A stretch of 64,000 nucleotides of DNA, taken from contig NC_092644.1 of the NCBI RefSeq assembly GCF_039555335.1, forward strand, positions 49,055,281-49,119,280, given 5' to 3'. Source of the DNA: Amphiura filiformis. Its lineage: Eukaryota; Echinodermata; Ophiuroidea; Amphilepidida; Amphiuridae. The notes beneath the pieces are model-generated. The model saw nothing but the letters and a program-made list of their open reading frames with translations, did no database searches and was not told the origin of the DNA. Numbering within the stretch: position 1 is the stretch's first letter; each line of letters starts with the position of its first letter. Shown here one piece after another: positions 4,013-55,239 of the stretch. The translations under genes and the position numbers were made by a program.

Positions 4013-4026
4013 TATTCATTTACACA

Positions 4027-4215
4027 ATGGGCTATGCCAGTTGAAATCCATACACTCCCTAATGAAGACATGACCTTAATCTCCCACACAGGGGGTGTAG
4101 ATATCAAATGAAGTCACCCATTCAGGAACTCAATTTAAAATCTACACCCCCTGTGTGGAAGATTAAGGTCATGTCTTTCATAGGGGGTGTATGGATTTCA
4201 TCTAGAATAGCACAA
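4027..4215. mobile_element. MITE of the GGGCTATTCCAGTTGAAATC family, copy 1
   Basis: Both ends carry versions of GGGCTATTCCAGTTGAAATC in inverse orientation. Inside, CTTCCACACAGGGGGTGTAG-type blocks pair with their complement, so the whole element can fold. This is the commonest repeat in the window; further copies lie near 4734, 4956, 12975, 13398, 25730, 32476 and 32916, with fragments near 15264 and 28963. Confidence 0.75.
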
Positions 4216-4733
4216 TGGGCCTGGTTTATAGTCATCTTGGATTCGTCAGTTTGCGATAATCACAACAATACAAATTATTATGTTTTATTTTTAAAAATTG
4301 GGTGAAATAATAATGGTTATATTATATCAAAATATTGGTGTGAAAAATTGGATATACTAGACCTACTATGTGAAATTTCAGCGAAAAGAAATATATAAAA
4401 TAAAGAATATTTTTTATACAATTTAGTAAAAGTTATTTTACTCTACATTTTGAAACATGCAAATGGGAATTCTGCAATGCTGTGGGTGGAATTTGAAGTA
4501 AAATGATTATATTTTATGATAAGAACAAAATTGAGGTAAAGGCAGCAGCAGTATGGTTGTCTTGAAAATGAAATGGTGGAACATGTAATGCATATGCTTA
4601 TTTTGTTCAAGGTAGAATATTTACTTGCTGCACCTAATTTGGGACCCACGTACTATAAATGGTTCCTATGTAAAACACATCCACTTTTTTAGTGTGTAGA
4701 GAATTCCCTTGAGGTGGGGTTATAATCATATGC
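4216..4733. other. no feature recognised
   Basis: AT-rich intergenic sequence without a supported gene or terminal repeat. Confidence 0.4.
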
Positions 4734-11400: not shown

Positions 11401-14400
11401 TGTTATAGTTAGTTTGGGTTATAATTGGCAAAAGCTGTACTACTGCTGAAGCCCCCTGCCATTCTTACTTATTCCCTGGCCAGGTACTCACCAGTATATT
11501 TGGGCACTTCCTGATCCTCTTCGTAACTCTTGTAGTTGTTGTCCATTCGTTGTATCAAATACTCTTATCAATGTGCCCTATATATCAAAGGAAAGGAATC
11601 AATAAGTGTCGAAATAAAATGTTACTCATGTAATAAACATCACCAATATCTTCAGGCAGTCAAGATGGCACTGGTGTTGTGAGGCAACAAGTTTGTTTGA
11701 TTTACAATTCATTCAAAAATACAACGATGTGCTAAATATACACTGTCAATATCGCATTGATTTGGGCAATCATATGAACAGATTTTGATGTCATTTCAAG
11801 TCTGAGATGCTTAATTTAACCCCCTGGCTCAGATTTACGAACACTTTACTGGCTTAGATATAGAAACACTTTACTGGCTCGGATATAGAAACACTTTACT
11901 GGCTCACATATAGAAACACTTTACTGGCTCAGATACTTGATACTAACAGGGTTGCCAAACCCGCGATTTGGTAGCCCAATTGGGCGACTTTTGAAGATTT
12001 TTCCCGCGACTTCTGACAATTTCCTGTCCCATAGAAACCAATGCTTAAGAAAAAAATTGGGCGACTTTTCAACTTTGGCTCCCGCGACTTTCGATAGTTT
12101 CCTGCCCCATAGAAACCAATGGTAAAGAGAAAAATTGGGCGACTTTTCGATTAATTGACCCGCGATTCGGGCTGAAATCTTTTGGCAACCCTGGATACTA
12201 ACCAATCACAAGCTGTGGGAAGTTGATCATCAGATGCAAACTAGTCTTTTTAATTACAGATTAATATAAATAATGCTTACCTTTTCTGATGCAGTGGCAA
12301 GCTTTGTGCCCTGATGATTCAGGGTAATACAAGTTAACACACCCTCGTGTGCCATAATATCTAAAGGCGCTTTCTCTGTATTGGCAAGATCAACAATTTG
12401 CACCTGACCTGTCCGCCTCCCAGGGAATGCAAGAAGTGAGTTATTACTATTCGGACAAAGTACACATAGACCTGAAATGGTGAAAGAAAGAATGTGAGGA
12501 GCTGCTATCAAAATAATATCGTGATATTTATTGACTTAGTTGATTTATAATAATCATTGCACATAGATTATTGCCTGCTTCACACACTATCTCAAAAGGC
12601 TGCCTTTTGTATTATTGACATCTAATTGTGAAGAGATACATTGTAAAATTAACATTTTATATTAATTTTGTGTCACAATATTACAATCTCACAACCATTC
12701 ATAAAAGAAAGAAGCATGCTGAAATATGATAATACATTTTTTTGGCATACAGCAGTATGTGATGCAGATGACGAAATATGTCTGCGCTGAAAAGGACTTC
12801 CCTAGGGAAAGATTAAATCTTACTCATGAATGTTTACCGACCTAGAGTACCAAGTAATTTCAAATCATATGTATGCGCTTGTTTGAGTGGTCATATTCTT
12901 TCACCTATAGCTTAAATATCAAAAGTACACAGTAATAAAATTGACATGAATGGATGGAGTATTGGGGCTTTAGCCGCTTTTCCATTTGAAATCCATTAAG
13001 GTAACCCCAAATGAAATTCACACTCCCTGTGTGGAAGATTAAGGTCATGTCTTCCAAAGGGGTGTATGAATTTCAAATGGAATAACCAGGGGTGTAGCAA
13101 AAGCCTTAAGGTCCCATGGACAAGGAGCAGTGCAGGCCCTTTTAACATCTCCTTTATCAGCTCTATTTCATTTTCCCTTTTCCTTGGGGCCCCTGGACTT
13201 CGTCCACCTTGTCTACCGCTCACTACGCCCCCAGGAATATTTCATTTTGATCCTTCACTTATCATGAGTATGAATGCTACATATTAAATCTTTAGGAATG
13301 AAGGAATAGTTGAATGTTAACAGAATATGGCTTGATTGGCTTTACCTATATCTACCACAACTGGAGTGAGTATTTTAAATGGAAGTTATCCAATTGTCTA
13401 TTCTATTTGAAATCCATACTCCCTCTGTGGAAGACTTTAGCTAAATCTTCCATAGGGGAGTGTAGATTTCAAAAGGAATAGCCCATGATTTAGCAGTATG
13501 TCTCTTACCTTTTGGGTTGGGGCATGTTTCAAAAACATGAAGTTGCTGTGGGTTTTGTGTGAAGGTGTACACTTTGATCATTGTGTCTAACACTACAACT
13601 ATCCTGTTGGTGAGGGAAAAAAACAACAAAGCAAAACATTGTGAAAATTATGTGTACTTATACTTTACCTTGTCATACATGCCATTCCCAACTAATACTA
13701 CAGCACACATACACCCCCAGATGCACAAAGACATATATAGAATTATCTTCCATACATTAGGTATGGATAGATACGAACCCTCAATTTTGTGGCATTCAAC
13801 TTTTGCCAAATCATTAAATTTCCTTCAAAAGGATTCCAATTTCATAAATCCACAACATTCACTTGTATTACAAGTGAATGTTGTGGATTTGTGAAATTGG
13901 AATCCTAAGTTGTAACATCTGGCCTATATTCACACACATGCAAATTACAGAAGATAGTGTGACAATAAAGTGTGATAAATCAAAGTTGGCCTCGCATAGC
14001 AAAATTATCACAAGCCAAAGGTACATCATATGATACATAAACATGGTGGCACGTTGGGCAGCAGTCATAATCACGAACTAGCTCAAGGTGGTGGGTTCGA
14101 GTCCCAGCAGTGTAAATGTGTTGTGCACTTGTGCAAGGCTCTTCACCCCTATTACCTCCCTCATCCAGATGTGCAAATGGGTACTGGCTTTAGTTAATGC
14201 TGGGAAGGTTACAAGACTCATTGTGGAGGTTACTCCAGCCTGTGAACACAGATAGATTCCCTTTAATTTTGTTTCCACAAACATGGCAGAGTCTGTTTTC
14301 CCTAAAATTTGGTTCATCTCAAGTTTGGTAGCAATGTGTGAATTTTACTGGTCGCAGTATCGAACCGCACATGTAAAGTTAATCATGCAGAGGGTAGATG

Positions 14401-17400: not shown

Positions 17401-20400
17401 GGCCTGATTTTATGTCATATTTAACGCTGTTAAATATAACTAGTTTTAAATATTGTTATTACCTACATGTATTTCATGCCGACAAGAGCTACCAATCACG
17501 CGTAGTCGTGTGTGTTGCCATGTAACGCTCTTAGCGTATAGTCATATACACGCACGCGCGTGCACGCAGAAGTCATTGTATTAAACGCGTCAGGAGTCAT
17601 TGTGAGTATTTATGACCATGCAATTAGTGCGCCAATAGGCAATCAATACATTTTGATTGGATTGCACTACCCTGAGTAAAGATAAACACTTGTGCTGAGC
17701 ATGAAATTGGTCACTTATTGCTCACTGTTCAAAATGTGACATCTACACCAATTACAGTCCCCGAAACTGTCTACTTTTTGGCCGACCGCAATTCGAAACA
17801 TTTAGTGATAGTTAAAAATCGATCCCCAACCCTTTGGTTACCTTTGGGACGAATTTGCAGAAATCTCCATGAGTCTTCGTGTCTGAAATTCCCGGTACAA
17901 ACATCGAAAATGTTGCATTTCTCAGTCCCTGTGATGATACTATATCCGCATCGCAGTTTTCATGCTTGTTTGAGTGATAGTAGGATACGGGATGTAGGCT
18001 AGTCCCCTGTGTTTGACCTGCTCCGACGTCTGAATTCACACGGAATTATTCGTACCTGCTTACCAGACAGCAATACTGCGTATTGCTGTATGGAACCAGA
18101 CATAGAATTGCACTTGCTGTGTATATTATTAAGGTTATGAATGTTGCTCATCGGAAATCACACATCATCTGTACTGGCCTAACTGGGTTCGATTAAACTT
18201 GTGCCATGGAGCAAAATGCTCCCCATTTTGGACAACGTATGGTTTTAGAGGAGTAACATCTAAATGGTTTTCAAATTATCTTTCTGAGAGAAAACAATAT
18301 GTGTCATACAATTCGAAGTATCATCTTATGAACCGATTTTATGTGGCGTTCCACAAGGATCAATATTGGGTCCTCTGCTTTTCATCATCTATATGAATGA
18401 CATCGCTCACACATCTGAATTACTATCATTTATTTTATTCGCTGATGATACCACTGTTTTCTACTCACATGAAAATATTAATGAACTCTGTAATGTAATT
18501 AATAATGAGCTGAGGGAGGTAATTAACTGGTTCAAAGCTAACAAACTTTCACTCAATGCAAAAAAGACAAATCTCATGTTTTTGGGTACTGTGTCCAAAA
18601 CCAAGGAAATCAATGACAATAATATTGTAATATCTTTAGATGGTTGTAAACTGGCGCGTGTTAAAGAAGCCAAATTCCTGGGTCTAACTATTGATGAAAA
18701 TCTTTCTTGGAAGAAACAGATTGTTAATATTTGTAATGTGTCTTCTCGAAATATTGGCGTTTTGAACAAGGTGAAGCATTATTTACCCGAACAAACTTTG
18801 TATTATAACCTTTACTGTTCATTAGTTGTACCCTATTTTAATTACGGTATTTTACTTTGGGGAAATGAAAACAAGGCATATCTTAACAAATTATTTAAGC
18901 TACAAAAAAGAGCTTTAAGAATAATATCTCATAGTCCGTATTTAAGCCATTAAAGACCACTTTTTGATAAATACAATGTTCTTGATATATTTGATATGTA
19001 CAAGAAAGAGTTGTCTATTTTTATGTATAAGTATACCCAAGGTATCATTTAGGTATGTTACCAAAATCATTTGATGCTATGTTTAAGAGTCTTAAGGATA
19101 TTCACAGTTATAATACTAGAAATAAGCATTTTACCAACTGCACAAAACAATTAAGTACTGTTGTCTCCAATGGTCCAAAAATTTGGAATCAAATACCTTA
19201 TGAGATTAGACAGGCTACCAACATTTCTCTCTTTAAGAGAGGAGTACATGCCTTACTGAATGACAAGTAGATCCAAGCATGTTTTGCTTCATTATTATAG
19301 TGTGATATTTCTGTTAATCATTCTACTAAATCATTGCCTCCACTTAATATGTCATCTCAAAGTTGTTTATCATTGCTTTTATTAGGGTGGTCACATGAAA
19401 ATTTCAAACCCACCCCTGGAATTACTTTTTCTGTCACGATTGTTCCTGCTGCAAAATGATTTAAAAAACCTCTTGAATCAACTCAATCAGACAATCCGTT
19501 GCGAAGATACAGCCTTTTAAAGATTCACAAAATTGGCCATTTTTACCCCATTTTTAGGAAAATCCTGATTTTGTCATAAATTTGCATATTCACGGAGCGA
19601 GAATTGTGGGAATAAAGCCAAAGAAGGCATTAGATGTATTGTTTTTGTTTATTTAATGTTCATTTATGCAAATATTAAAAATCCAGGGTCATAATTGCTA
19701 TATTTGCTTCTTTACAACATTTTTAAAATGGCTGAAATGACAAAAATAACTCTTTTGCCAGGACTTTTAAGGTAAATATATGTGATTTTCACCATTGAGG
19801 GCACTATTATGTGCCTATTTTGACCTTCAAAGGCCTGTATTTCCTAAACTACACAACCAAATTGTCTGATTTTTGCACAGGATTTTGCTCTGAGGGTCTA
19901 GATTGTAAAACTGAATATAGCATAATTGTACATCTTTGGGAAAATAGTTTTATTTGATGACAAAAAATTATTTTGTGCGTAACTTTTTTATGCGTGACCG
20001 TACAAAAATGCTATATTCACCTTCATTACAAGCAGAATATTTTCTATCTAATTAGGTAGTCGGGTTTGCACAGAAGTTACTAGGAGACAAATTATATGGA
20101 ATTCAAAATGCCCAAAAGTTTTCCAACTGCTGCAGAATCTGTTAAATTTTCACCATACATTTGTGTATGTAGGCAGGGGTACACACAATAGCTAGCATTG
20201 TGGCCACCCTACTTTTATGCTTTATATCAGTGGTTGTAATTTACTCTATGTTAATGTTAAATACTCATGATTATAGTACAATATTATATTTAAATTGATT
20301 GATTCATGAATTATATTTGTGTTTAAATTTTTTTGGCTACAGATCCTCGTTTTGTTTTTGTTCTGTTTTAATTTGTGTAATTTAATTATACAGTGGGTGC

Positions 20401-21048
20401 AGCATTTACAGGCTTCGCTTATCGTTGTACCTCCTCCATCGTGTTGTTCTTTTTATAATTATTGTATTTTGTTGTAATTTTTGATGGAAATAAAATAAAT
20501 CTGATTGATTGATTGACTGAACCTGCTACACAAATATCAGCTTGATAGCAATATTTTACAATGTAAACATATGCTATTATTATAAGAACATCATCACCTA
20601 AATGATATTTTTGTTTAAAATTGCTACGCAAGTTTTTCAAAGTTTAAAATCGAACCCTGATCATGCTGATTTTATTATACCACACCCTGAATAAAATCAT
20701 TACAATATAATATTACTAGTAATATATAGACCTATTGTGGCTAGAGTCTATAAACATGTATTCATGATTCGTGTAATTGTATATGCCTATAACCTGAGAC
20801 GAATATATCTAAAGGTATATTCGTCTCAGCTATAACTTACAGTTGAAGTTACAAGTACAACATCATGAACATCATCATGGAAATCATTAATCCATGTCCA
20901 TGAATTGGGCAATTTGATCATTCGTGTAGCATGCATGTTTATGTTATCTTTTCTTTCATGATTAATGAAACAAATACTTACCATGGTCTTGATTGAAACC
21001 TGCATAAAGCAGTTTGTTATTAAAAGGGTTTTCTGGTCCTAGATTCAT
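8461..21048 (-). CDS. WDR45B: WD repeat phosphoinositide-interacting protein 3 (WDR45B/WIPI3), ten exons
   Basis: Coding exons, 5' to 3' on the minus strand: 21048-20982, 16648-16574, 15717-15616, 14602-14515, 13603-13509, 12471-12281, 11577-11492, 10640-10539, 10159-10038 and 8567-8461. They sum to 1,035 nt, giving 344 residues plus stop, the same length as the human protein as I recall it. Every intron is GT-AG and the phases join cleanly. The protein starts [18 protein letters not shown] and ends [14 protein letters not shown]3 hallmarks include [26 protein letters not shown] and the LRRG motif at residues 224-227, which in PROPPINs binds PI3P/PI(3,5)P2. The family is a seven-bladed beta-propeller that acts at the forming autophagosome. 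WDR45 (WIPI4) is the nearest alternative, but the sequence reads closer to WDR45B. The first intron is 4.3 kb and repeat-laden. Confidence 0.95.
8683..8800. mobile_element. short inverted-repeat element enclosing telomere-like units
   Basis: TCCTTCATGTAATTATT on the left pairs with TATTATTACATGAAGGA on the right. Between them lie about 70 bp of CCTAACCCTAACC-like units. It lies in the last intron of WDR45B. Confidence 0.6.
8960..9262. repeat. low-complexity repeat with AAAGTGGACCTTTTT units
   Basis: AAAAGTGGACCTTTT or a close variant occurs several times, with long A and T runs. Probably part of an unclassified repeat in WDR45B intron 9. Confidence 0.35.
9281..9648. mobile_element. MITE with AAGGGTATACG ends
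   Basis: Left end AAGGGTATACGATGTATTGT then TGGTCGAAGCAGC; right end the inverse GCTGCTTCGACCAACAATAC then CACGTATACCCTT. 368 bp, no coding capacity, in WDR45B intron 9. Confidence 0.75.
9669..10008. mobile_element. MITE of the CGTATTTCGTCAAATAG family
   Basis: Terminal inverted repeats TACCGTATTTCGTCAAATAG continue into GTCGCCCCC, and the right end is the inverse. 340 bp. Its right end stops 29 bp short of WDR45B exon 9, just beyond that exon's donor site. It shares ends and the TTTCCATGCTATCT block with the large element at 186-3136. Confidence 0.85.
11838..11935 (+). repeat. 31-bp tandem repeat, about 3-4 units
   Basis: Units of AAACACTTTACTGGCTCNNA type plus TATAG recur head to tail directly beside the hAT-like MITE. 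Confidence 0.7.
11947..12193. mobile_element. hAT-like MITE with 8-bp target duplication
   Basis: Ends CAGGGTTGCCAAA and TTTGGCAACCCTG are perfect inverses, and GATACTAA is duplicated exactly on both sides (11939-11946 and 12194-12201). CAGGG ends and 8-bp target duplications fit the hAT superfamily. Internally it carries repeated TCCCATAGAAACCAATG blocks. In WDR45B intron 6. Confidence 0.88.
12975..13090. mobile_element. GGGCTATTCCAG-family MITE, copy 4
   Basis: Shortened copy with CATTTGAAATCCATT on the left, the conserved TGTGTGGAAGATTAAGGTCA core, and ATTTCAAATGGAATAAC on the right. Confidence 0.65.
13398..13490. mobile_element. GGGCTATTCCAG-family MITE, copy 5
   Basis: Compact 93-bp version: CTATTTGAAATCCATACTCC pairs with GTAGATTTCAAAAGGAATAG. 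Confidence 0.65.
13828..13906. repeat. near-perfect palindrome of about 79 bp
   Basis: AGGATTCCAATTTCATAAAT runs into CCACAACATTCACTTGTA, and the complement follows after almost no loop, with one mismatch visible. It could extrude as a cruciform; probably a tiny foldback transposon in WDR45B intron 4. Confidence 0.8.
14040..14236 (+). mobile_element. tRNA-derived SINE
   Basis: GGTGGGTTCGAGTCCCAGCA is a good RNA polymerase III B box with its T-arm stem. A weaker A-box-like region precedes it. The body (CACTTGTGCAAGGCTC and CCTATTACCTCCCTCATCC) resembles tRNA-derived SINE bodies. It lies in WDR45B intron 4, opposite to the gene. I did not find a clear tail or target duplication. Confidence 0.65.
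15264..15450. repeat. partial GGGCTATTCCAG-family copy plus CCAGCTG-rich repeat
   Basis: GGACTATTCCATTTAAAATC and CCTCTGTGGAAGATTT match one end of the MITE family. They are followed by several AATTCCAGCTGNAAAT units, locally repetitive. Confidence 0.4.
16135..16560. repeat. unclassified repeat with GTTTCCACTGA motifs
   Basis: GTTTCCACTGA or GTTTCTACTGA recurs at least three times and its complement CAGTAGAAAC once near the end, suggesting a degraded inverted-repeat element just downstream of the exon 2 donor of WDR45B. No other content seen. Confidence 0.3.
18199..20516 (+). mobile_element. LINE (non-LTR retrotransposon) remnant with reverse transcriptase
   Basis: 5'-truncated element in WDR45B intron 1, opposite to the gene. 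An upstream segment (18199-18396) reads [20 protein letters not shown], the block that precedes the reverse transcriptase palm. A 195-codon segment (18366-18953) has [13 protein letters not shown], the catalytic FADDT and [17 protein letters not shown] third (19055-19270) has [10 protein letters not shown] and [15 protein letters not shown], the typical LINE C-terminus. At least one frameshift joins the first two, and stop codons at 18951 and near 19049 break the rest, so it is dead. The 3' end, after AATAAAATAAATCTGATTGA, is a (GATT)n tail, as in CR1/L2-like lineages. Exact family uncertain. Confidence 0.88.
19383..20211. mobile_element. 829-bp non-autonomous DNA element nested in the LINE
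   Basis: Ends TAGGGTGGTCAC and GTGGCCACCCTA are inverse with one mismatch, flanked by an exact 7-bp duplication CTTTTAT (19376-19382, 20212-20218). It separates the LINE's last coding codons from its 3' tail, so it is younger than the LINE. No transposase seen; superfamily not assigned. Confidence 0.82.
20794..20829. mobile_element. 36-bp hairpin micro-insertion with 7-bp duplication
   Basis: A 36-bp sequence begins CTGAGACGAATATA and ends TATATTCGTCTCAG, an inverted pair around a short loop. CTATAAC is repeated exactly on both sides (20787-20793 and 20830-20836). A second, slightly diverged copy lies at 23527-23560. Confidence 0.8.
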
Positions 21049-21595: not shown

Positions 21596-24500
21596 ATGGC
21601 TTTCCGTGTTTCAAAATGCCTGTCAGTATGCGGCAAAGCATTGATGACAGCCAGTGTTAACCATGCTGCTTTGACGCCGGCAATGACGGGGAGGTACGCT
21701 CTGACAAGATGCATGTCTTCAGCAGGTAAGCTTATTTAAAAAGTTATTAATTACACAGTCACAGCTCAGTTGCACTGTGCAGTGATGCACATGACTCAGC
21801 ATCCCAGTCCGGGGGGCGGGGCATTCATTCCTCGAGAAGTCTCTGGTCTGAGACTCTGCTGCATGTATGTGTGCCTTCAAAGTCGCCACAATGTCAAATT
21901 TCAGCATTAACAGAATAAATAATCTCTGGTGCAAAAAATTGCAGCAGCTAGCAGCGCTGTCCGACCGAAAAAAAATGCACTCTAGCATCGAATGCGTATA
22001 AAACTATCGTGTGCAAATTCGAAGCTAGAGTTCTCAAGTAAGGTTGATATTGCCATCGTACACTATGTTGGTATTGTTTATTTGTAAAGTGTTGTATTGT
22101 TTATCTGTAAAGTGTGCTGAGGCTTGTGGATCAACGTCTAGGCGTTGTGCCTGTGCGTAGCGCACTATAAATGACTGCGCTTTTTTTTTTTTTTTGTACC
22201 GTAATGTAAATTTATGTAAAAGCTGAATTAACAGATCTATGCAACGAGTGAGATACCGGTAGTGACTACCATTTTGCAAAGATCTTTTGCATTGCCTGAT
22301 TTGGCGCAGTGTACATAGGCGTTCAAACAAGTCGGGTTCCTGAACAAAAGGTACCATTTGATGAATAGTGGGAAAATCAAATCGATCGGTACTACAATGT
22401 AAGTAACTCCATTTTGAGTTCGCATATTAAAAACATGATATTATTATTTTTCATCAGGTGGATACAAAAATATCTTGGTAGACACAAAAGGAGAGAAAGC
22501 AAACGTAGGGTTCATTCAGCTCAACCGACCCAAGGCATTGAATGCATTGTGTGATGAATTGATGCTGGAAGTAGAACAGGCTCTCAATGACTTTGAAGCT
22601 GATAAAACTATTGGCTGTGTTGTACTCACTGGCAGTGAAAAGGCATTTGCAGGTAAGAAACAATGTAGTTAACTGTCTTTGTTAAAGTGTCCCTGATTGG
22701 CTAACTTTCAACCTCAGGATATAATCAAAAGAGCTTTAGATATGGTCATTTTCACAGTAAAGGGTGTAACTTTGGATTGTTAACATTTTGATCCGTAGTG
22801 GTCTAATAAAGCTACAGAATTCCATGATTTTTGGCCGCATAAGTCATCTAGGTAGCAGCTACCTTTTTCAGAGGAGGCAAAGGGGAGGGGGACAGTGAAG
22901 GGGCGTGTGTCGGGTCTTAGCTAGGATTTTACAAGTGCCTGTCATTTTCACCCAAACTGCCTGTTAACAATTAACCCTGAAAACATAAACCAGTACTCTG
23001 CCCCTTCTGGGTTTTTAGTCAGTTCAAATACATGTAGCTATTGCTATAGTCTATAGCCTCGATTTATTATTACTAGTCTGGCCTTGTTTTGAGTTCACAG
23101 AACTTATTCAAGTATTACTTTGAAGCTTAAAAGCATATATCACAGGCGTTAATTTTGCCTGTCTCTGGACCAAACTATGGGTGTTATGGAGGGCAAAATT
23201 ATTTGATTTTAAGTGAGGACTTGTTTGCATTCTGCACATAATGCATGCACATATTTTGGGGGGCTTTGAGGCGCCAGCCCGGGGGTCAAAGGCAGGTGCA
23301 AAAAACAAAGGCGGCGGAAGAAGAAGGCGGCAAAAGAAGGGCGGCAGAAGAAGAAGGGGCGGCAAAAACAATTAGGAAAGTAAAAAAGGCGGAAAATTTG
23401 AAAAAGCAAAAAAATTGTGAAAAAATTATACATTTTAGGGCGCTAGCTGCGTGTTTTTTTTTTTTTTGCTCTTCACTTTTCAAACCACGGAAAAAAAATT
23501 GGGTTAACCTTTTCGGGCTGTTGAGGCTGAGAAGAATACACCTAAGTATATTCGTCTCAGGTTGAGGAAGGGGCGGCAAAATTAAATTTTCTTCAGCCCC
23601 CCGGGGAAGGAGCGGCCACGTTACGCCACTGTAATGTGTACATGAAATGCAATGTAAACCTTTGTAATGCTCAAGCCTAAAGATATATATGCAAATTGCC
23701 ATTCTATTTCAAGCTTGTTGCTGAAGGTATACTTTTGCTCTCTGTGTATTATGTCTCAGGACTCAGGTCTAATCTCTCTGTATCAGGTAACAAGTTTCGA
23801 CGCTATTTTCCCTTTGCTTACAGCTGGTGCAGACATTAAAGAAATGCAGAACAAATCTTTCCAAGAGGTTTATAGCGGTAGCTTCTTAGCACATTGGGAC
23901 AGGCTCAAGCGCACCAAGAAACCAACTATTGCTGTTGTAAATGGTTTTGCTGTAAGTAATTTGAATTATAATCTAGGCAGTTCATCTTGAAATATTGTCT
24001 GCTGACTTTTGCTTTTAGAAAATTGAGTGCTGCTATATCCCACCTTGCCATGTGTAAATCAGCAACTTACTACTATTGGGTATGGCACAAAAAGTACTAT
24101 ATTTTGCAGTAAACCTTTGATGAGAGTGTACATGTATTTTAAGCGTACATCACGCATCTACTGTTTTGAAACGTACTTGCCTCTGATTGGCTGCTGAGGC
24201 GACCTGCTGTTGCCGAGTGGAAATTTATGAATGAACTTGCACCGTACGTGTTGTTAGCACTGACTTTGCAACATCACGGTAGTATGCGCTCATCAAAGTT
24301 TTACTGCAAAATATTATAGCAGGACACAACTTAATTTATCATTCATCCATTCAACATTCATTCATTCATTCATATTTTATTTTCATCAATCATCAACATA
24401 TACAAGTGATACTAATAGCTCAACAAAGTAATAAAATTAAATGTAAACAAGAGTCATTGGTATATAAATAAATCTCAATACATTTAGGCAGTAACAATTA

Positions 24501-27500
24501 AATCAATATAATTAAATTAGAATAACATTACTATGTATGATTGACCAAAATACACTTTAAATGCATAATGATATTACGAGCGTGCTTGTACTAGTTTATC
24601 ACGGAAATACCACACTGCAATGGCAATTGATCTTGAAGTACTTCTACAGTGATAAGCGCCTAACAACTGATAAGCTGGCTCTCTACAAACACGCTCAGTG
24701 AATAATACATACATGTACTATCAAAATATAACATACATGTAGTAATACATGACAGCAAATATAAAATTTTTAATGTTTTTAATATAATATTATAAGAACA
24801 TAATAATGTAATGATAATATAATAATATTATAATATAATAATATAATAACATAATGACAAAATAGTATAATAACAATATTTCTAATTCTCTTATAGTGAT
24901 GGCAGAGTACATTTTAAATGTTTGATATGATGGATGCATAATATACTGCATAGTAATGCATGATAAGAATCATAAGTATGATACAATAGATATTTTTACA
25001 AAATACATAAATGACCATTGATACAATGGATAATAATGTTAATGAGTCAATCTCTGCATACTTTACAGTGAGAGGGGCTATACATGATGACAGAGATTAT
25101 ATTTTAGAATATTGTACAATTTGATGTACTGTACCCTTGATCTGTAAAAGGGAAATTTTCAAGGGGGTTTAATTTCGTGATTGGAGCTCCAACCGCGAAA
25201 ATAACACCTCACAAATATATGCAACAATGTAGTTCAAGTATAGGGCAGGACTTGGCAATCGCGAAAATAACATTTGTGAAAATGTCTCTCTTTGTACTCT
25301 AAATCATGAACTGCTAGCGAAAATATCCCGTTTTATAGCACATGTATTTTCCAGTAGCGACTACTGACTGTACAGGCTGTATCAAGGTAATTGCTAGTAT
25401 GTTACCAATCACTTTTGGTTTGGTGTATATTAAAAAGCCGGCTTCTTCCAAAATGGAACAGTGGGTTTCTTGAAATGACCATAATTTATTGTTTTGATCA
25501 TGACATTTATCAACAAATTATTTGGATCCTGCATTGCATTTTGATGTGGCAGTCATGTCCATAATCACTGGAAACTGATGGGTATCAATAATATTTTTTG
25601 TTGATGCAGCCTGTATGAGTGAGATTTGGATTTGCAAATAAGTACCATATTAATTGAATGGTGTAGAAAAAAGGTGGGGAAAAGAAAGAAATTAAGAAGG
25701 TTTTACATGTAGTTCACTGATGATCAGCACTGGGCTATTCCAGTTGAAATCCATATCCGTATGGAAGACATCCACACAATTTCAAATGGGGTTACCTTAA
25801 TGGGCTACTCCATTTGAAATCTACACTCCTTGTGAAGAAGATTTAAAATGTCATGTCATGCACAGGGGGGTATTTTGGTCAATTGGAATGGCACAGCAAA
25901 CATGTAAGTAGTATTTGTTAAACTTTTATTGGTCTATGTGTAGTGCTGTTCAAATTATTGATAACTGAAATCATCTTTTTTTCCAGTTGGGTGGTGGATG
26001 TGAAATGGCCATGATGTGTGATATTATTTATGCAGGTGAAAAAGCACAGTTTGGACAACCTGAAATACTACTAGGAACTATACCGGGTAAGTTCATCACA
26101 ATGACAAACATCCAGGAAGGTACGAAAATGCAAAAAAAAAGGCAGAACTTAATTAGAAGCAGAGCATGACCTAAGACATTGGCATGTTTTAGTTGTATAT
26201 GGTTTTCAAGGGTCAAGTGATGCCTTTGGCATTGCAAGAACTGCTATATGTAACCTCCAAATGGTATAGCATTCTGTTTACAATGTGTACCATAACATTT
26301 TGCTATATGATGCCAGCTAAAATATGTATGCCCTGCCCATGGCCAATAGGTGGAAATGGAAGTGGTCATACTGTTACTGAAAATTTAGTTTATTTCCCTA
26401 GCTTCAGAATTTTTGCACCTCTGCATTAAACTTTGCCCTGTCCTCATTGGTGTGCAGAAACCAATGTTTAAGTTCAATGCCCCCCCCCCCCCAGGATCAC
26501 ACCCTGGTGCTTGCCCGGGTGCATGCAGCACTTAGTGGCACAATGCGTTACATGCAGAAGCAAACGACAATGCACTTTAAATCAGTGTTTGTCGGGTGTG
26601 TGGCCAAATAATCTGGATACACTATTTTGTCCTCTATGAGCAAACATGGCTTGGGATTTAATCTCTATGGTTTATACAGAAGTAATGTATGCAGATAATA
26701 CCCTGGGGATAATACATGTGCATTTTGAATAATTATATAATGAATCTATTCCAATCCAGGTGCTGGTGGAACCCAGAGACTGACACACGCTATTGGCAAA
26801 TCAAAAGCCATGGAGATGGTACTAACTGGGGACAGAATGAATGCACAAGATGCTAAAGAAGCAGGTAGGCATAGGTATACCCACACACAACTGCCCCTAC
26901 CCCCACCCACACACCCAGGCTATTGGCAAATGTAAAGCCATGGAGATGGTACTAACAGGGGACAGAATGAATGCACAAGATGCTAAAGAAGCAGGTAGGC
27001 ATAGGTATACCCACATACCCACCACACCACACACACCCACCCCTCCCCCCGTACACACCCAGGTGATTGGCAAATCCAAAGCCATGGAGATGGTACTAAC
27101 AGGGGACAGAATGAATGCACAAGATGCTAAAGAAGCAGGTAGGCATAGGTATACCCACATACCCCAACCACGCCCACACACCCAGGTGATTGGCAAATCC
27201 AAAGCCATGGAGTTGCCACATCATATAAAAGATAATAACCATCACAAAATAAGTGGAAGTACAAGGTCTCCATCAAAAACACAAGAATTATTTACAGATA
27301 TAAAATTAAACATGTCATATGTATGTACATTTAGGCCATTCATGAATAAGTGTCAACTTCATAATTGTAATTACTTGCTTGAGTTAATTATTTCTGTTCT
27401 TAATGTCCAAGCGCGCTTGATATAACTTTTACTGAATTTATCAAAAATGTAACCTAACGTTCTATCAACAATATATATGTTTTCCATCTAGTAGAAAATA

Positions 27501-30500
27501 TTTAACATCGTAATTATCATTACTTTGAAAGTAGAACCATTGCCAGAAAGAAGAAAAGTTGTGCGTGCTAAGGGCGGAAAAATTTGATAAAGCCTACAAA
27601 ATTTTGAAAAAATGGTACTTTACATCAAAAAGTGCTGCTTTTAGGGCGCTAGCGCCTGAAAAGCCTTTTTTTTTCTTTTTTTTTTTTTTTTTTTTCCTCT
27701 TCACTTTTTCAAACGATCGAGAAAAAAAATTGGGTCAACATTTTCGGGCTGTTGAGGAAGGGGCGGCAAAATTGAATTTTCTTCAGCCCCCCCGGGGTTG
27801 GGGCGGCCACGGTACGCCACTGGAATGCATAAGATGCTAAAGACCGGGCTTAAAGAAGCAGGTAGGCATATTTACACCCACACCACCACCCTCCCTACAG
27901 GATGGCCTTTTTGTTTTAGTGTTTCAGGCCTTTGGGCCCATATGGGGCTGTATCCATGTTACACAAATATTCATTGTCTATAAGTGTGATGGTTGAAATA
28001 TAATCCCAGGGTGAAAGATGGATTGTACCATTCCATGAGCCGGAACGTCACATGGAATGAACCAATGCATTTTTCTCTGAGTGATTATAAACTGCTCAAA
28101 TAAAGAAAGTCCGCAGTCATGTAACCTGTCCTACACCAAAACCTAATCTTGTTATGACAATTTGATTGAAACGATCGTGTTCAAAATCTTGTTAGCTGCA
28201 ATTTGATACCAAATTTGCTGCCAAAAACGCTAAATTCACAGAGATTGATACCAGTATATGAGATTTGGTGCATTTTCAAAAGTTGCAAATTAAAAACGGA
28301 TCAGGCAGACCTGTAGAGGAGAATGGCAGAGCGCAACCATTAACATAGCCCGAAACAACCGCTAGGTCATATCGATCGCATTGTGCCCTAGTATTCATCA
28401 GTAAAGCATTGTAGCAATCCATGCGTTTTAAATTAACAATTGAATAAAGCGCGCACTTGGGACAGTCGACATGGGCCCATCGTGGGCAAGCAAGCTTGAC
28501 CATATTGCCACGCCAAGCAATTTCGACTGCGTGCTTCATTTTGATTTGCAACTTTTGAAAATGCACCAAATGCCATAAACTGGCATCAATCTTTGTCACC
28601 TTTGAGTGTTTGGTAGCAAATTTGGTATCAGAATGGAGCTAACAAGATTCTGCACACGACCGTATCAATCAAATTGTCATAACAAGCTCAGGTTTTGGTG
28701 TTGGACGGGTTATATGACTGCGGACTTTCTTTATTTGAGCAGTTTATGTTGACCAAATGTTACATAAATTTAAGACAGTTAATATTTGTTTTATGTCAGT
28801 CATACATAAATTCTATAAAAATACTATTTAAGGTAGGAAATACATTTTTACATCAACATAATATGTTTTGCCATGATACACTTCACATTTTGGGCTCCAC
28901 CCCATAATTTATGGCCCTTATAACTTACGGTCGGCCTTTTGTTGTAGCATTCGGGGCTGAGGATTTCAACTGGAATAGCCCAATGCTAGATTGATATAAA
29001 TTAGTTGTTCTTAATAGTTTCAAATAATAGGTTTCCAATTAATATGTTCTATTATATTGGTTTTTGGATGTATTTTCTAGTCTCGTTCATTTGCATTTTT
29101 GCAATTTTTCCCATACTGTGCAATATCCATTAGCCTTTTTGAGATATGGTGGACACAATAGGATGGCACTGCACGAAATGGGCAAAGTCTTTTTCAGTGA
29201 ATTTGCAGGGTTTTACCCATATTGCAGACTGCCCTCCTATTGTGTATGCTATATCTCGAAAAGGCTTATTGGATGTTTCTCAAACTTTGAACTTTCTGAT
29301 TATAATATAATGCTCTTTATAGCAATAAATTATTGTTATTAATGATGTTTGTATTTCATCTGCTTCCAGGTTTGGTAAGCAAGGTATTGCCAATAGATCA
29401 AGTTGTTGATAACATTTGTATTTCATCTGCTTCCAGGTTTGGTTAGCAAGGTATTGCCAATAGATCAAGTTGTTGATAATGTTTGTATTTCATCTGCTTC
29501 CAGGTTTGGTTAGCAAGGTATTCCCAGCAGATCAAGTTGTGGATGAAGCCATCAAACTTGCAGAGAAAATCAGCGGCAATTCCAAGATAGTTGTGCAGAT
29601 GGCAAAGGAGGCAGTCAACACAGCATATGAGGTCTCACTTACAGAAGGACTCAACAATGAGAAGAGGTTATTCTATGCATCATTTGCAACGGTAAGTACA
29701 TGTCACTTAATAAAGACATTGCGATTTCAGAACATAGCATCGAACGTACATGGAATGTATTCAAAATCCCGTCACAGGAGAGTGATTTTGAATTGATTCC
29801 ATGTACGTTCGATATGTACGTTTGGAAATCGCAATCTCTCTATTATTCTTAAAGGGGAGAGTGTTGTGTAATATTGAGGATGCTTGTAAGCGTTGCCAAA
29901 ATATTTTAGCTCATCAGGGGTCAAATAATTGTTAAGTCACACACTTTTTCTCTTAACCATTGCTTATTATGGGACAGGAAGATACAGAAAGTAGATGGAT
30001 GTTTAAAATTATGTTATCCTTGATTTATGCCAATAAATTGTTTAAAACATTGGGAAAAGAATAGGTGGTCCCCGGTTTTAAACTGGGGCGACAAAATCAG
30101 GATTTTAGAAGTCTAGCGCTCTAACCACTGCACCATGTGAAAGTGAAATATTTAATATGCTGTTGTCGGGAAAGAATAAAAGAATTGCATAAACTTTTGG
30201 CAAATGGAGTTCAGAATTTGTATATAGGGTATCTCAGAATATGCTGGATATAAGTATTAATATTTATTTTCAAATAATTTTGGCTATGAAATACCAGGTG
30301 AAATGAAATGGGAATGTTTATACATTATCTAACAATGATTGACTGTAGGATTTAATAGTGTCACCTTTTGAATTAATGAGTTGTTAAAATATTAAATTTG
30401 GGACAGTAAATAACATTTAGCATGGTTTTAGATATTTTTTTTGTTCCTAGCAAAAAACACCATGAAACAATAGAACTCAATTTATTTATTTATTCGTTAT

Positions 30501-32915: not shown

Positions 32916-33250
32916 AATGGGCTATTCCAGTTGAAACCCATACACCCCTTATGGAAGACATGACCTTTAGGCCTCGTATCCATAGGCTGTTCCCTTGTGG
33001 CATGTGCCCTTGTTCCGTGTTCACATGTGACCTGCCACACAGACAACGAACCTTAGTGGCCACTAAGCAAAACAAAGGTTCGTTGTCTGTGTGGCAAGTC
33101 ACATGGGAACAAGTGAACACGGAACAAGGGCACACACCACAAGGGAACAGCCTATGGATACAGGGCCTTATTGTCAACACAGGGATGTAGATTGTGTGGT
33201 CAACCATGCATACCCCATTTGAAATTCGCACTCCTTGTGTGGAAGATCAG
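32916..33250. mobile_element. GGGCTATTCCAG-family MITE, copy 8, interrupted
   Basis: Starts GGGCTATTCCAGTTGAAACC and resumes after the nested palindrome with CCATTTGAAATTCGCACTCC and TGTGTGGAAGAT. The right terminus is lost. Confidence 0.65.
32967..33170. mobile_element. 204-bp palindromic element nested in a MITE
   Basis: CCATAGGCTGTTCCCTTGTG, TTCCGTGTTCAC and ACACAGACAACGAACCTT on the left each meet their complement on the right, around a spacer of about 20 bp. Arms of about 90 bp are nearly identical, so the insertion is probably young. Confidence 0.85.
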
Positions 33251-35510: not shown

Positions 35511-37361
<1,851 letters not shown>

Positions 37362-40300
37362 CCCTCCCCCTTAAAAGAAGAAAGTTCAAATGTAATGAAA
37401 ACTTTCTTAAATGTTTTCTTCTTTTACATCAACTTCAACATATTATCAACTTTGAGTATTTAACTCATCATACCCAGTGACTACTTGTCACACAAGTTCC
37501 CTTTTAAAAGGAATTTTTGTTTATCAGCCCTTTTATGCAATTCTGGACAGGGCATCAGCCATTACATTGTCTTTTCCCTTAATATGTTTGATGTCCAGAT
37601 TGTACTCTTGCAAGGTTAAACTCCACCTCACCAGTCTTTGGTTTTGTTCTTCATCCTGTTGATGAAGGTGAGGGATTGTGATCTGTGAAAACAAGCACAG
37701 GGTATACTGTGGTACCCAAATACACATCAAAATGTAGCAATGCTAATAGCAATGCTAGACACTCCTTCTCAATTGTGGAGTAATTTCTCTGGTGCTTGTT
37801 GAATTTCCTTGAAAAGTAACAAATGGGGTGATCTATTTGATCTTCACCCTCTTGCATCACAACACCTCCACAGCCTATGTCACTGGCATCAACAGTCAAC
37901 TTGAACTGCTTCTGAAAATCAGGTGCAGTAAGTACTGGTGAACTCATGAGTATTGATTTGACTTTGTGAAAAGCATTTTCACACTGTTCTGACCAAATGA
38001 ATTTTGCATCTTTCTTCAACAAATCAGTCAAAGGACTTGCTATCTCTGAAAAGTTTGGACAGAACTTTCTATAATAGCCAACCATTCCTAGAAATCTCAT
38101 GAGTGCCTTCTTGTTTACAGGTGTGGGGTATTGCTCAATTGCTTCAACTTTGGCTTTGATAGGTTTCACCTGACCTTGACCTACAACATATCCCAAGTAT
38201 GTGACTGTGGCATGGCAAAACTCACTTTTACCAGGTTGACTGTCAATTGTACTTCTGACAGCTTCTTAAACAATTGATGGAGTTGTTCCATGTGTTGTTC
38301 CCAAGTTTGACTGTAAACAATCAAATCATCTACATACGCTTCACATCCCTCTATGTCTGCCACAATTTGGTTCACCATTCTCTGAAATGTTGCTGGGGCA
38401 TTTTTCAACCCGAATGGCATAACTTTGTATTGGTAAAGACCAAATGGTGTACAAAAAGCAGAAATCTCTTTGGCACGGTCTGTGAGTGGAACCTGCCAGT
38501 ACCCTTTCAAAAGATCAAATTTGCTAACAAATTTTGCATTCCCAATTTTGTCTATGCAATCATCAATTCTTGGAATTGGGTACGAGTCTGTCTATGAATG
38601 AACATTTGCAGCTCTCATGTCTCGACCAATCGGTATGAACCATCAGGCTTGGGAACAAGAATGCATGGTGAACTCCACTCATAACTACTACTTGGTTCTA
38701 TGATATCATTGTCTAGCATGTAATTGATCTCATTTTTGAGATGTTCCATTTTCAATGGATTGACTCTGTAAGGATGCTGCTTAATTGGTTTAGTATCACC
38801 AACATCTACATCATGAAATGCAGCATTTGTTCTACTTGGAGTATCAGGAAATATATTGTCAAATTTGTGAATCAAATTTGCAATTTGACTTTGTTGATCT
38901 TGAGAAAGATGACCTAACTTTGAGTCCAAATTAGTGAGCACATCAGAATTGTTCAATTTTACATTATACTCTTTGTGCTCCAGCTCTTTATCCTGGTCAA
39001 ATGTGACATCAGAATTGTCATCTTTACTCTTGTCTACATTGGCAATTTTGTCTACATCGGCATGTTTGTCTACATTATCAGCATGTTTTACTGTACACAC
39101 AGGTTTTGGAATGCCACTGTCACTTCTTTCAACATACTCTTTGAGCATATTTATGTGGCATAACTGCCTGCTCTTGCGTCTACCAGGAGTCTTGATAATA
39201 TAATCTACTTCACCCACTTTTGACTCTACCTCACATGGACCATGATATCTGGCTTGTAATGGGTGTCCTGGAATTGGAAACAGTACTAGAACTTTGTCAC
39301 CTGGTTTGAACACTCTCTCTTTGGCATGTTTATCATACCATTGTTTCATTTTGGCCTGACCCTGTTTCAAGTTCTCTTTGGCGATATCAGTTACTCTGTT
39401 AAGCCTATGCTTAAAATTGGAGACATAATCCAATAAATTGATATCTGATTTCTCATTGAGCCACTTTTCTTTCAACAACTTTAAGGGCCCAGCACTGTGT
39501 GTCCAAATACTAACTCAAAAGGACTAAATCCTAAAGTTTCCTGAACAGCTTCCCTAGCAGCAAACAACAACAAGTGTACTCCTCATCCCAGTCCCTCTGA
39601 AATTCCAAACAGTATGTCCTGATCATGTTTTTCAATGTTTGGTGGAACCTTTCTAGTGCACCTTGTGATTCTGGATGGTAAGCACTTGAGGTATACTGTT
39701 CTATACCTAATTGATACATGACCTGCTGAAATACTCCAGAAGTAAAGTTTGATCCTTGGTCTGACTGTATGGACTTGGGGAGCGCCCACAAATGTGAAGA
39801 ACTTGGTTAAAGCTTTCACTATGGTCACTGCTTTAATATTTCTCAATGGTATGGCTTCAGGAAAGCGTGTTGACGCCAAGCACATAATTGTCAGAAGGTA
39901 TTGATTACCTGACTTAGTCTTTGGTAGGGGGCCTACACAATCAATAATAACCCTACTAAATGGTTCATCAAAGGCTGGAATTGGCTTTAATGGAGCAGGA
40001 AGTATTTTCTGATTTGGCTTCCCTACTACTTGGCATATGTGACATGTTTTGCAATATTCAGAAACATCTTTTCTGAGAGTGGGCCACCAGAAATGTCTCA
40101 GAATTCTTTCATGAGTTTTCTTAACACCCAAATGCCCTGCCATGGGACTATCATGTGCTATGTTAATAACTTCAGTGTGGTAGACTTTTGGTACCACAAT
40201 TTGGTGCACTACCTTCCACTCTTCATCGGCAGGTGCATCAAGGGGCGCCATTTTCTCATTAGCACATCATCTTGTTTGTAAAAACAGACAGAATTTTGTT

Positions 40301-42549
40301 CTGCTTCTTCTAGGGTCAATGCCCTTTGATTGATCTCTTTGAGTTCTGGGTCATTTTGTTGCTCCAGAATTAGCTTGTCATGACTTAATGGGTCTTTCAT
40401 GGTTTCCTCAATTTGTTCATGCTCAGAGGCTGTGTCATTTTGAGGGGTCTTTTTATCCCCTGGAGAAGGAAGTTTATCTTCTTTCTCATTCAACTTTGAC
40501 ACAAAAGTGTCTTCCAAATTGTAGCCTATGTCATCAATTTGGTTGTCCTCAATTGTTTCTAATGAGGCCTTCTTACTCATTGCCCGTGTCACTGCACATG
40601 CAGGAAATATCTCCTCTTCCTCACTATTATCATCCTGTATACAGGGCTTATCTGTGACTATTGGGTCAGCAAAAACCTTCCCCCCTGCCAAATCATTTCC
40701 TAGCAACATGGACACTCCTTTGACTGGCAATTCATGTCTAACTCCTATGGTAACAGGACCAGAAACCAAGTCAGATGTCAAGTTAATTTTGTGGAGAGGT
40801 ACACTAATTATTTCCATCCCAATACCCTGGATCAAAGCATTACCTGCTGAACTAGCCTCATTAAAGGGCAAAGTTCCTTCCAGAATCATAGACCGTGCAC
40901 AACACGTATCTCGCACAATCTTGATGGGCTTTGGACTACCATTCTCACCAAGTGATACTACTCCCTCTAACACAAATGGTTCAAATTCTTCACACACCTT
41001 GTCTGTCTCACCTCCCTTTTGTGGGAATTCTTGTTTCTTGATTTGACTGACTTTTTTTCTTTGACTCAAGTGACACTGCACATCCCACAGTATTACTAGC
41101 AGTTTGCTGCTGTTTTTGTGCGTCTTGTCTGCCTTTTAAGAAATAACACTGGGTCATCGATGCCCTGGTCTCTTACAATGAGTACAAGTTACTTTGGCTT
41201 TAAATTCAGTCCCAAATTTTGCTCTGTTACCTGAACTCCCTGGGGTCCCTCTACCACCAGCACTATGCTGTGAATTAGACTGAGGTTTCACTTCTTGTGT
41301 ACCACCCTGATTTGTTCTAGGTTGATTATGGCTGAACCTGTTTGAATAACTTCTGTTATGACCAAATCTACTCCCATTCAATTTGTGAGTTAAGCCATAG
41401 TCGTCCGCCATTGTTGCCGCCTCATTTAGCGTCTTAATTTTGCTAGCGCTTTCATCCAAATGGGTTTCAATGTCAACGTGGACACATTTCTTGAACTCTT
41501 CTATAAGAACCAATTGCTTAAGTTGGCGAAATCATCTTTGACTTCTTTTGAACCAAGCCACCTGTCAAACATTTGTTCTTTCACTCTAGCAAATTCTACA
41601 TGGGTTTGATCTGCTTGCTTTCTTGAATCTCTGAACTTTTGTCTGTATGCTTCAGGCACCAGCTCATAGGCCTTAAGGACTGCCTGTTAGGCTCCTGTTT
41701 GACTTCTTCATAATTATTACACTTCTCTATTGGTAGAGCTGAGTAAGTTTCCCTGGCCTTCCCCACAAAACTACTTTGTAACAGTAGGGTCCAATGCTCT
41801 GGAGGCCATTTCAAATTTGTAGCTACCTTTTCAAAATGTTGAAAGTACTCATCAACTTCTTTCTCTTTGAATTTAGGCACAAGCTTTACATACTTTGTAA
41901 CATCAAAGCCTGACTTTGACTTTGAGGAGAAACTTGATGAGTATTTGTCACCTAGCTTAGCCAACTTCTCTTGTTCAAACTCAATTTCTTTTTTTTCTTT
42001 CAAATGTGCTTCCAGCGCCATCTTTTCATGCGCGCTTTGTCTTCCATTGCCATTTTCTGTTTCTCAAGTTCCAATTTTGCCACCTTTTCCTTTTCTTCAA
42101 TAAACATTTTCTGTTTTTCCATATCTAGCCTTTCTTGTTTTTTCTTTATTTTCATTCTCTAACTTGATCATTTCCAGTTTTTCTTTTTTGGTCCATTTCT
42201 ATTTTCCTCAGTTCTAATTGAATTTCCAACTCTTTCAATTTAACTGCAGAGTCCCCACCGATTTCAGTTTCGACTCCTCTTTTCTCTTGCCCAAAATGGA
42301 TTCATCAAAATACTCTTCATCAACTAAAACCTCAATCAAGACATTTTTGATTATTTGTCTTCTTGTAGTTTGCTTTACTTTCAAGTCATAATGTTTGGCA
42401 AGTGCTAATAAATCAGGCTTCTTCAACTTATCAAATTTCTCCCAATCTATAGTTTCAAGAAACTCTTCTGCTTTGAACTCTGTCATACTGTACTTTCACT
42501 TTTAAGACTCAGTAAATGAATGTCAACTTTTTTACAGTGTATTTTCCCG

Positions 42550-42568
42550 GACGCGAGCCCCCAATTTC
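42550..42568 (-). other. primer binding site
   Basis: Directly inside the 5' LTR, the minus strand reads TGGGGGCTCG, then CGTCCGGGA, resembling the complement of a tRNA-Pro 3' end, the primer used by several retroviruses. Confidence 0.6.
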
Positions 42569-43625
42569 TGTTACGAGTCGTACTTGACTCAAGGCCAAAA
42601 TCACCTTTTACCCAAATTCACACGAATGCACAACACAAATACACTGTTTGATTTTAAGCTAACAAATCTAAGTCTTTAATTGAAAATAGAGTATGCTTGG
42701 TACATATAACAACAATTACAATAAAATCACACAATCATTTTTATTATATCGGTACTTAACCAGCGGTCTTCTTGTTGGTGATTCTAGAGTTCTTGCAATG
42801 TTCTGGACGACTGATGTAATATATCCTTATTCACTTGTTCTGCTAAAATCAGTGAAGTCCATCGTACACTTGCATTTATAAATCCTTGCACATAAAATCC
42901 TCATACGAAAATGATGATGCTTCCTCCAATCTCCTTTGCGCTGCTATCTCCACAAATATATCTCCTTGCGCTGCTTTCTCCAAAAATGGTGTTTCTTTCA
43001 CCAACCACTCTTTTTCCAGGGAACAGGTTTCTTTAACACAGCTCCACTGTTTTTTTTGACAGATGCGTTGCCTTCACAAACCCAGCAAACTCCAGCAATT
43101 TGACAGAAGAACTTTTAATCCTTTGATGAGGAAGAGCACTTTTGTGTGCTCGCTGTCTTCTTCGTTGCTGTATTAAAATTAGCTCAATTATTGGCTATAT
43201 AAACTGGTTAAAATGTACTTCTTTTTTGAAGCACGAAGACCATCACACACATGTGGAGTTTTCAATCTCACATGACATTCTGTAAAGTCCCAACAAAAGC
43301 CTTCAGCTTTTTATATCAGTACTCATGCAAAAACCCATCATCTATTAATAAACCATTACTTCAATCACATTTTCACAACATTGCTGCAATCTTGGGATTT
43401 CCCAAGATTAATTATACACATTCACATTACATTACTTCCTGGGGGGTTTTCCTGATGGTGCAATAATGAACTGGGGCTTTCCAAGTTCTAAACATAGCTC
43501 TGACTTTGTTTACAATAATTTGGGGAATTCCAAAATACAAGGGGTTTCCCATCTCATGAAATACTTTCAGCTTGTAAACAAAGTTAAATAATTAAATTAA
43601 ATCAAATTACTCAGTGCACATCACA
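42569..43625 (-). repeat. long terminal repeat (5' LTR), 1,057 bp
   Basis: Same TG...CA boundaries as the 3' LTR and nearly identical sequence throughout. It is shared between the main element and the partial internal segment to its right. Confidence 0.95.
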
Positions 43626-44166
43626 CCCTCCCCCTTAAAAGAAGAAAGTTCAAATGTAATGAAAACTTTCTTAAATGTTTTCTTCTTTTACATCAACTTC
43701 AACATATTATCAACTTTGAGTATTTAACTCATCATACCCAGTGACTACTTGTCACACAAGTTCCCTTTTAAAAGGAATTTTTGTTTATCAGCCCTTTTTT
43801 TGTATTTTTGGACAGGGCATCAGCCATTACATTGTCTTTTCCCTTAATATGTTTGATGTCCAGATTGTACTCTTGCAAGGTTAAACTCCACCTCACCAGT
43901 CTTTGGTTTTGTTCTTCATCCTGTTGATGAAGGTGAGGGGATTGTGATCTGTGAAAACAAGCACAGGGGACATACTGTGGTACCCACACACACATCAAAA
44001 AGTAGCAATGCTAATAGCAATGCTAGACACTCCTTCTCAATTGTGGAGTAATTTCTCTGGTGCTTGTTGAATTTCCTTGAAAAGTAACAAATGGGGTGAT
44101 CTATTTGATCTTCACCCTCTTGCATCACAACACCTCCACAGCCTATGTCACTGGCATCAACAGTCA
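43626..44166 (-). mobile_element. partial second internal region of the same retroelement
   Basis: Begins with the polypurine tract and repeats the RNase H end of the polymerase region (matching 37362-37893). The order LTR-internal-LTR-internal is typical of tandem elements formed by recombination through LTRs or multimeric DNA, here followed by loss of the rest. Fossil. Confidence 0.85.
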
Positions 44167-44173
44167 CATCACA

Positions 44174-44594
<421 letters not shown>

Positions 44595-45740: not shown

Positions 45741-45812
45741 TGCAAGTGTTGTGATGTCTTATCTAAAGCAAATATAAAGAAATAAATACTTATCTTAGCA
45801 AGGTGTAAGAAC

Positions 45813-53215: not shown

Positions 53216-53520
53216 ACTAAATATTGACATCACAATAAATCAATGTAACCCAAGATTTGAAAGTTGCAGTTATTGATTTTGTATTCAGTGTAATGGAAGG
53301 AAATCTGTGTAATGATATCTTAGTATTTTTGTATTGTAAAAATTTGTATAGTACAACTTTCAAATCTGGACCTCACTACATTAAATTGACCGGTGTTTTA
53401 TTGTTTTCTGGGCTATCGTATCAAATGAGGTGTTAAAATGCGCAGAATTAATTCTGCTTCCAATGCATTTTACAGATTTGAAATACAATAACCCTTTTGA
53501 ATAATGGCCATTATTTAAGG
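53216..53520 (+). repeat. partial spacer copy (third copy of the ZNF 3' flank)
   Basis: Matches the last 330 bp of D1 (AATTGACTAAATATTGACAT to TTTTTTGAGATGTTTACATT). It forms the 3' flank and probable 3' UTR of ZNF-B. Confidence 0.88.
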
Positions 53521-54602: not shown

Positions 54603-55239
54603 TTCAAATGATGTGATATCTTATCTATAAACAAATACAAGAAATAAATACTATCTTAGCAAGGTATTGTAATAAACCTCCATATATAATAAGAAGTACC
54701 TGGATTGACAGTTCAGATACAGTTCAGATTAGAAGGAAATTGGTGTGTCGACAATTATTTAGACTCTGGATAATTCCAGTATAGCCCACGTGTTCTTTCA
54801 GTATACTGCCCTCTCCTAAGAAACATATGCCATTTAAAAGTAGGATGCACTTTTTCTGAATCCTTGAAATGAAAGAAATAATTTATTGTGCCTTTTAAAA
54901 GGGCATTTCGGGATCCACAACCTCATCCCCCACTTTTCTCAAAAAAAAGTTGAGATTTTTATGTCACTGAAAAAGGAGAAATTGTGTGGGGTAAAGTTCA
55001 GCCTTGTACGTATTCTTCCCCCGTTTGAAGCGTACACCCTGGCTGAAATTTGATACACTTTTGATACACCACTTTTGATACGTATGAAAAATGTATGAAA
55101 TAAAAGGCTTTGAATTGGAACCCTCATTTCATACACTTTTATGTATCAAAACTGTATCAAATTAACATTGCATACACATTTTATACATATCAAAAGTGTA
55201 TCAAATGCCAAGATAATGTATCAAAAAAGTATCAAATGA

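Follow-up and report, generated by a model that had tools for sequence, protein, structure and literature searches.

The cut made by Drosophila P transposase lies 17 nt within the ends of the element, a stagger that the excerpted source calls unusual and atypically long, and the P element has a target-site duplication (TSD) of 8 bp (PMC7776569). In Galileo, a Drosophila element of the P superfamily, the TSDs are mostly 7 bp long with the consensus GTANTAC, according to extracts of two papers (PMC4168063, PMC2775673). In an assay of P excision, the deletions next to repaired sites were small with the fly enzyme and larger with its zebrafish relative THAP9; the section on that assay describes no 34-bp palindromes (PMC10983969). 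Among echinoderms, a sea cucumber has THAP9-like genes that encode a P transposase domain, and the wider class with transposase domains is known from other species, as stated in part of a preprint (PMC13228809). The genome of Amphiura filiformis has a size of 1.57 Gb, consists of 59.3% repeats and carries the trace of a recent burst of mostly DNA transposons; the stem "palindrom" is absent from the main text of the genome paper as retrieved (PMC11310086).

We analyzed a window of this genome, the whole 64-kb stretch of DNA discussed here. Its G+C content was 36.5%, in agreement with the 36.67% given in the retrieved text of the genome paper (PMC11310086). The initial annotation, made from the letters of the window, had described a 34-bp hairpin flanked by GTTGAGG, with the same CTGAGA and TCTCAG ends as a hairpin at 20794, and had added that a related repeat reads straight through with a single GTTGAGG. 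Both statements were borne out, that on the hairpin with its coordinates. The hairpin unit, called B, extends from 23520 to 23567 and reads GTTGAGG, the 34-bp palindrome CTGAGAAGAATACACCTAAGTATATTCGTCTCAG and again GTTGAGG. It is located in intron 2 of ECHS1, the gene for mitochondrial enoyl-CoA hydratase, about 260 bp upstream of exon 3. When the exons in the window were spliced by hand, all 296 aa of the product agreed with the A. filiformis enoyl-CoA hydratase P0001 (100% identity).

22653..23823, plus strand: ECHS1 intron 2, containing palindrome B (GT/AG borders)
23520..23526, plus strand: left TSD of B, GTTGAGG (window sequence and hairpin/repeat scan)
23527..23560, no strand: palindrome B, 34 bp (sequence, scan, arm comparison and fold)
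23561..23567, plus strand: right TSD of B, GTTGAGG (window sequence and scan)

Palindrome B is made up of two 17-nt halves with mismatches between the arms at 3 of 17 positions and is thus an imperfect hairpin; folded as DNA, it gave -7.3 kcal/mol (z -5.2). The hairpin at 20794, called A, precedes the ECHS1 ATG by about 760 bp. It has 36 bp, arranged as 17 + AA + 17, with a mismatch at 1 of 17 positions and a folding energy of -12.1 kcal/mol as DNA (z -8.3).

20787..20793, plus strand: left TSD of A, CTATAAC (window sequence and scan)
20794..20829, no strand: palindrome A, 36 bp, same family as B (scan, self-BLAST, arm comparison and fold)
20830..20836, plus strand: right TSD of A, CTATAAC (window sequence and scan)

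A and B thus have common CTGAGA/TCTCAG ends and different perfect 7-bp flanks, CTATAAC and GTTGAGG, respectively. The four 17-nt arms of A and B (CTGAGACGAATATATCT, CTGAGACGAATATACCT, CTGAGAAGAATACACCT and CTGAGACGAATATACTT) gave the consensus CTGAGACGAATATACCT, with 1, 0, 2 and 1 private differences, respectively, and no shared derived changes. The 17-nt ends of each palindrome are inverted repeats, with the paired-end form CTGAGACGAATATACCT ... AGGTATATTCGTCTCAG. The only difference in length between A and B was found at the center (AA versus nothing), and outside the two ends there was no other sequence. A 34-bp palindrome has 17-bp arms by definition, so the value of 17 is a single length fact and not two. 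Read in one orientation, both TSDs start with GT (GTTGAGG and GTTATAG); from the composition of the window, a GT start is expected with a frequency of 0.11 for each and 0.012 for both, a figure calculated post hoc. Half of a GT...AC target motif was present at both sites, and the full motif at neither.

The related repeat allowed a filled copy of the host sequence to be compared with an empty one.

23385..23636, plus strand: host repeat, filled copy with palindrome B (aligned with the empty copy by BLAST over 23385-23426 and 23454-23636)
27570..27827, plus strand: host repeat, empty copy (BLAST pieces 27570-27613 and 27682-27827)

The empty copy has one GTTGAGG, at 27751-27757, and no palindrome. 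Its alignment with the filled copy showed a clean gap of 41 bp (34 + 7), with matching sequence on both sides of the palindrome. These were the two copies of the host repeat found within the window, and the direction of insertion for B is based on this one filled and one empty copy. Because the empty copy has a single GTTGAGG and lacks the palindrome, the 34 bp appear to have entered an existing repeat. Judged from this comparison, the 34 bp were almost certainly inserted, with duplication of 7 bp of the target.

The empty copy lies in a region with duplicated coding sequence. Here, two near-complete copies of an ECHS1 exon and a split fragment come after the exon itself; the two pieces of the fragment are about 607 bp apart, with the empty copy of the host repeat in the interval.

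26760-26860: ECHS1 exon
26913-26990: near-complete copy of the exon (94% over 78 bp)
27066-27134: near-complete copy of the exon (97% over 69 bp)
27189-27215 and 27823-27843: split fragment of the exon

To assess A and B against chance, the window was scanned, without the sequence put forward by the initial annotation, for arms of at least 12 nt with up to 2 mismatches, a loop of up to 12 nt and an abutting exact repeat of at least 6 bp. Three structures were retrieved in this way: A, B and, at 60471, a case with a 6-bp repeat. An exact 7-bp repeat adjoined 2 of the 211 hairpin boundaries in the window, namely, those of A and B, and none of 150 first-order Markov random windows had any such 7-bp case. 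A control with flanks displaced by 1 to 50 bp gave 47 matches, of which 2 were independent, 8 were the A and B duplications themselves, reached via inner hairpin boundaries, and 37 fell in arrays that were tandem, palindromic or AT rich. When the scan was relaxed, 3 extra matches appeared with an arm of 8 nt and 1 mismatch (9177, 24823 and 60656), 1 with an arm of 7 nt (24826), and 7 with an arm of 12 nt when 3 mismatches and repeats as short as 5 bp were allowed; the random counts were 0, 0 and 0 to 2, respectively (8 sequences per setting). The real window therefore exceeds the random model in loose hits. Most of these extra matches were AT rich or lay in repeat arrays, and none contained the arms of A and B.

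The motif CTGAGA N10-40 TCTCAG occurred 3 times in the window, compared with 0.04 expected. The third pair, at 40073-40101, lies within a retrotransposon-like stretch, has neither a 7-bp duplication nor long arms, and is probably due to chance. For A and B, chance is a poor explanation, because identical arms are found at two places. Among 15 other palindromes in the window, none had identical 7-bp flanks at its printed ends, and several had shorter or offset direct repeats close by. Longer palindromes of unrelated sequence were seen at 4025-4217, 13830-13906, 33003-33126 and 60384-60581, also without identical 7-bp flanks at their printed ends.

Other repeated features were recorded in the window. 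The stretch around the third pair, 36306-44166 on the minus strand, has an LTR-retrotransposon-like interior between 1.6-kb direct repeats (36306-37898 and 42569-44166) that are 98.7% identical. On the minus strand, its integrase domains (39586-40266 and 38618-39514) are encoded ahead of RNase H (37651-38262), the order of Gmr1-like gypsy elements. Related C2H2 zinc-finger arrays were found on the minus strand at 35617-36307, 44229-45758, 53514-54620 and 63137-64000, the second and third by Pfam and the other two by DNA similarity. Tandem repeats at 55141-56373 and 57297-57786 keep one open frame over long stretches. A reverse-transcriptase fragment on the plus strand, at 18288-18953 (PF00078, E 5e-17), probably comes from a non-LTR element.

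The initial annotation had regarded the hairpin as a micro-insertion. The part of this claim that concerns an insertion with a 7-bp duplication, later than the copying of the host repeat, is upheld by the empty copy and by a second locus that has the same arms and its own duplication. The part in which the hairpin itself was the inserted unit did not hold up as well, because the excision scar of a larger transposon fits at least equally well the lengths of 2 x 17 and 2 x 17 + 2, the 7-bp duplications and the change in length at the center. We therefore favor the reading that A and B are scars, or footprints, left by the excision of a cut-and-paste DNA transposon with a long-stagger cut, and we give it an even chance of being correct. 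The terminal inverted repeats of this transposon would start with CTGAGACGAATATACCT.

In this scenario, something with these ends first inserted at two places and duplicated 7 bp of the target, as the sequence shows. The transposon would then have departed through a P-element-type transposase that cut one strand at the boundary and its partner about 17 nt further in, and a 17-nt tail of the transposon end would have been kept on either side of the donor site. Closure of the gap by end joining would give TSD + 17 bp + (0-2 bp) + 17 bp + TSD. A 34-bp palindrome would thus be predicted from the P cut geometry together with end joining, and the hairpin would be a by-product without a function of its own. 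If excision were frequent relative to the time in which neutral insertions become fixed, scars rather than full elements would be fixed.

Several observations are consistent with the scar reading. The lengths of 34 and 36 bp, known from two copies only, fit 17+17 and 17+2+17, and the different centers of A and B fit a scar because end joining would vary there. Members of the P superfamily have TSDs of 7 to 8 bp, and those of A and B were 7 bp long and perfect. As in the footprints of P and its THAP9 relatives, a target duplication would surround the ends of a departed transposon, and a 17-nt internal cut would give 17 bp per end. The THAP9-like genes of echinoderms (PMC13228809) and the recent burst of mostly DNA transposons in A. 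filiformis (PMC11310086) also speak for this reading. Galileo shares with A and B the mostly 7-bp duplications and a target motif starting with GT; however, Galileo elements are hundreds to thousands of base pairs long with long repeats, and the full GTANTAC motif was absent at A and B. The primary papers on P footprints are reportedly those of Beall and Rio (1997) and of Staveley and others (1995).

Other observations set A and B apart from P/THAP9 footprints. The ends start with CT and not with CA, a start common to the P-type ends compared here but perhaps not a defining feature; Drosophila P ends start with CA, as does a zebrafish P-like end, CATACCTGTCAAC. The TSD is 7 rather than 8 bp long, no transposase is linked to either site, and the repaired sites described for P excision (PMC10983969) show deletions. 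Under the scar reading, A and B would both have kept both tails whole, unlike the deletions in the P/THAP9 assay. No longer element of up to 15 kb with these ends and a 7-bp duplication was found within the window, and lone copies of the end were no commoner there than by chance (14 versus 14.4 expected). Two protein searches for a P transposase gave no named echinoderm among the matches listed (119 of 119, and the best 120 of 595; most were unnamed). We have not filed A and B as products of the P superfamily, because the ends differ and no transposase is linked to them. If they are scars, they would resemble P-type footprints in the way they arose and would add a new case to an already known type of event.

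A rather doubtful alternative is that the 34- to 36-bp palindrome is itself mobile, a self-contained element that relies on a transposase supplied in trans from another locus and that may move as an extruded hairpin or with the ends of two copies paired. The independent duplications of A and B, with nothing separating the ends, agree with this, as does the lack of a longer relative within the window. Against it, the ends of a 34-bp duplex would be hard to join on one transposase complex, such a molecule would be a poor substrate for ordinary cut-and-paste transposition, and the length of the center differs between A and B. We also found no matching eukaryotic nuclear family in searches of an open-access library. 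Among the matches listed there, no tiny dispersed nuclear hairpins of animals surfaced, no title on very small transposons concerned a eukaryotic element of this kind, and the letters of the end sequence retrieved no title about such an element. Small dispersed hairpins do exist as bacterial REP palindromes (PMC3733652) and as repetitive hairpin-forming elements of sponge mitochondria (PMC2800124), both as described in excerpts of the sources, whereas A and B are nuclear, lie in an animal genome and have 7-bp target duplications and an empty site. The paired ends had no match in viral_contigs or genome_contigs, and a 27-base stretch of the host repeat had none in viral_contigs. The bare 17-mer matched 4 viral contigs once each; since these matches were single and had no inverted partner in the stretch examined, they are not evidence of a relative.

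It is unlikely that A and B are relics of another kind, either of a miniature inverted-repeat transposable element (MITE) whose middle was deleted once it had inserted or of excision by a transposase that cuts differently, such as that of hAT7. Palindromes are prone to central deletion, and A and B share inverted ends and target duplications with MITEs. However, two independent deletions would have had to end symmetrically at lengths no more than 2 bp apart, and A and B have no internal region, their 17-nt ends being separated by 2 and 0 bp, respectively. Known MITEs are longer than 34 to 36 bp. As for a hAT scar, hAT excision is not known to keep 17 bp of each end. Duplications of 7 bp are also found in fungal hAT7 families, according to an excerpt (PMC12730594), but when hAT elements excise, the flanking ends are turned into hairpins and the footprints vary, as described in part of another source (PMC3878927).

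Two further transposon groups were rejected as the source. Dada transposons likewise make 6- to 7-bp duplications but have no terminal inverted repeats and target small-RNA genes, whereas here the ends are inverted and B lies in a dispersed repeat. Kyakuja has a 7-bp TSD, yet it lacks terminal repeats in the description available in part. A functional stem-loop or small RNA was also dismissed, as the palindromes appear too short and their contexts unrelated. Chance palindromes, template-switch mutation or an assembly artifact are very improbable, for although the window has other hairpins (211 boundaries) and template switching yields short quasi-palindromes, two loci have common arms but perfect 7-bp duplications that differ, 0 of 150 random windows had a hairpin abutting such a repeat, and the ends are presumably unlike both the Tn5 mosaic end and the SMRTbell adapter.

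If A and B are scars, their lengths would preserve the way in which a perhaps vanished transposase cut its ends and would bear on whether the 17-nt stagger described for Drosophila P transposase applies to an echinoderm lineage as well; such scars would also testify to past departures of transposons without a full element left to annotate. If they are not, they would be mobile elements shorter than ordinary cut-and-paste models allow. A palindromic family of 34 to 36 bp that transposes by itself in an animal nuclear genome with 7-bp duplications, which we consider a tentative possibility, would be among the smallest eukaryotic mobile DNAs, below the length usual in repeat annotation.
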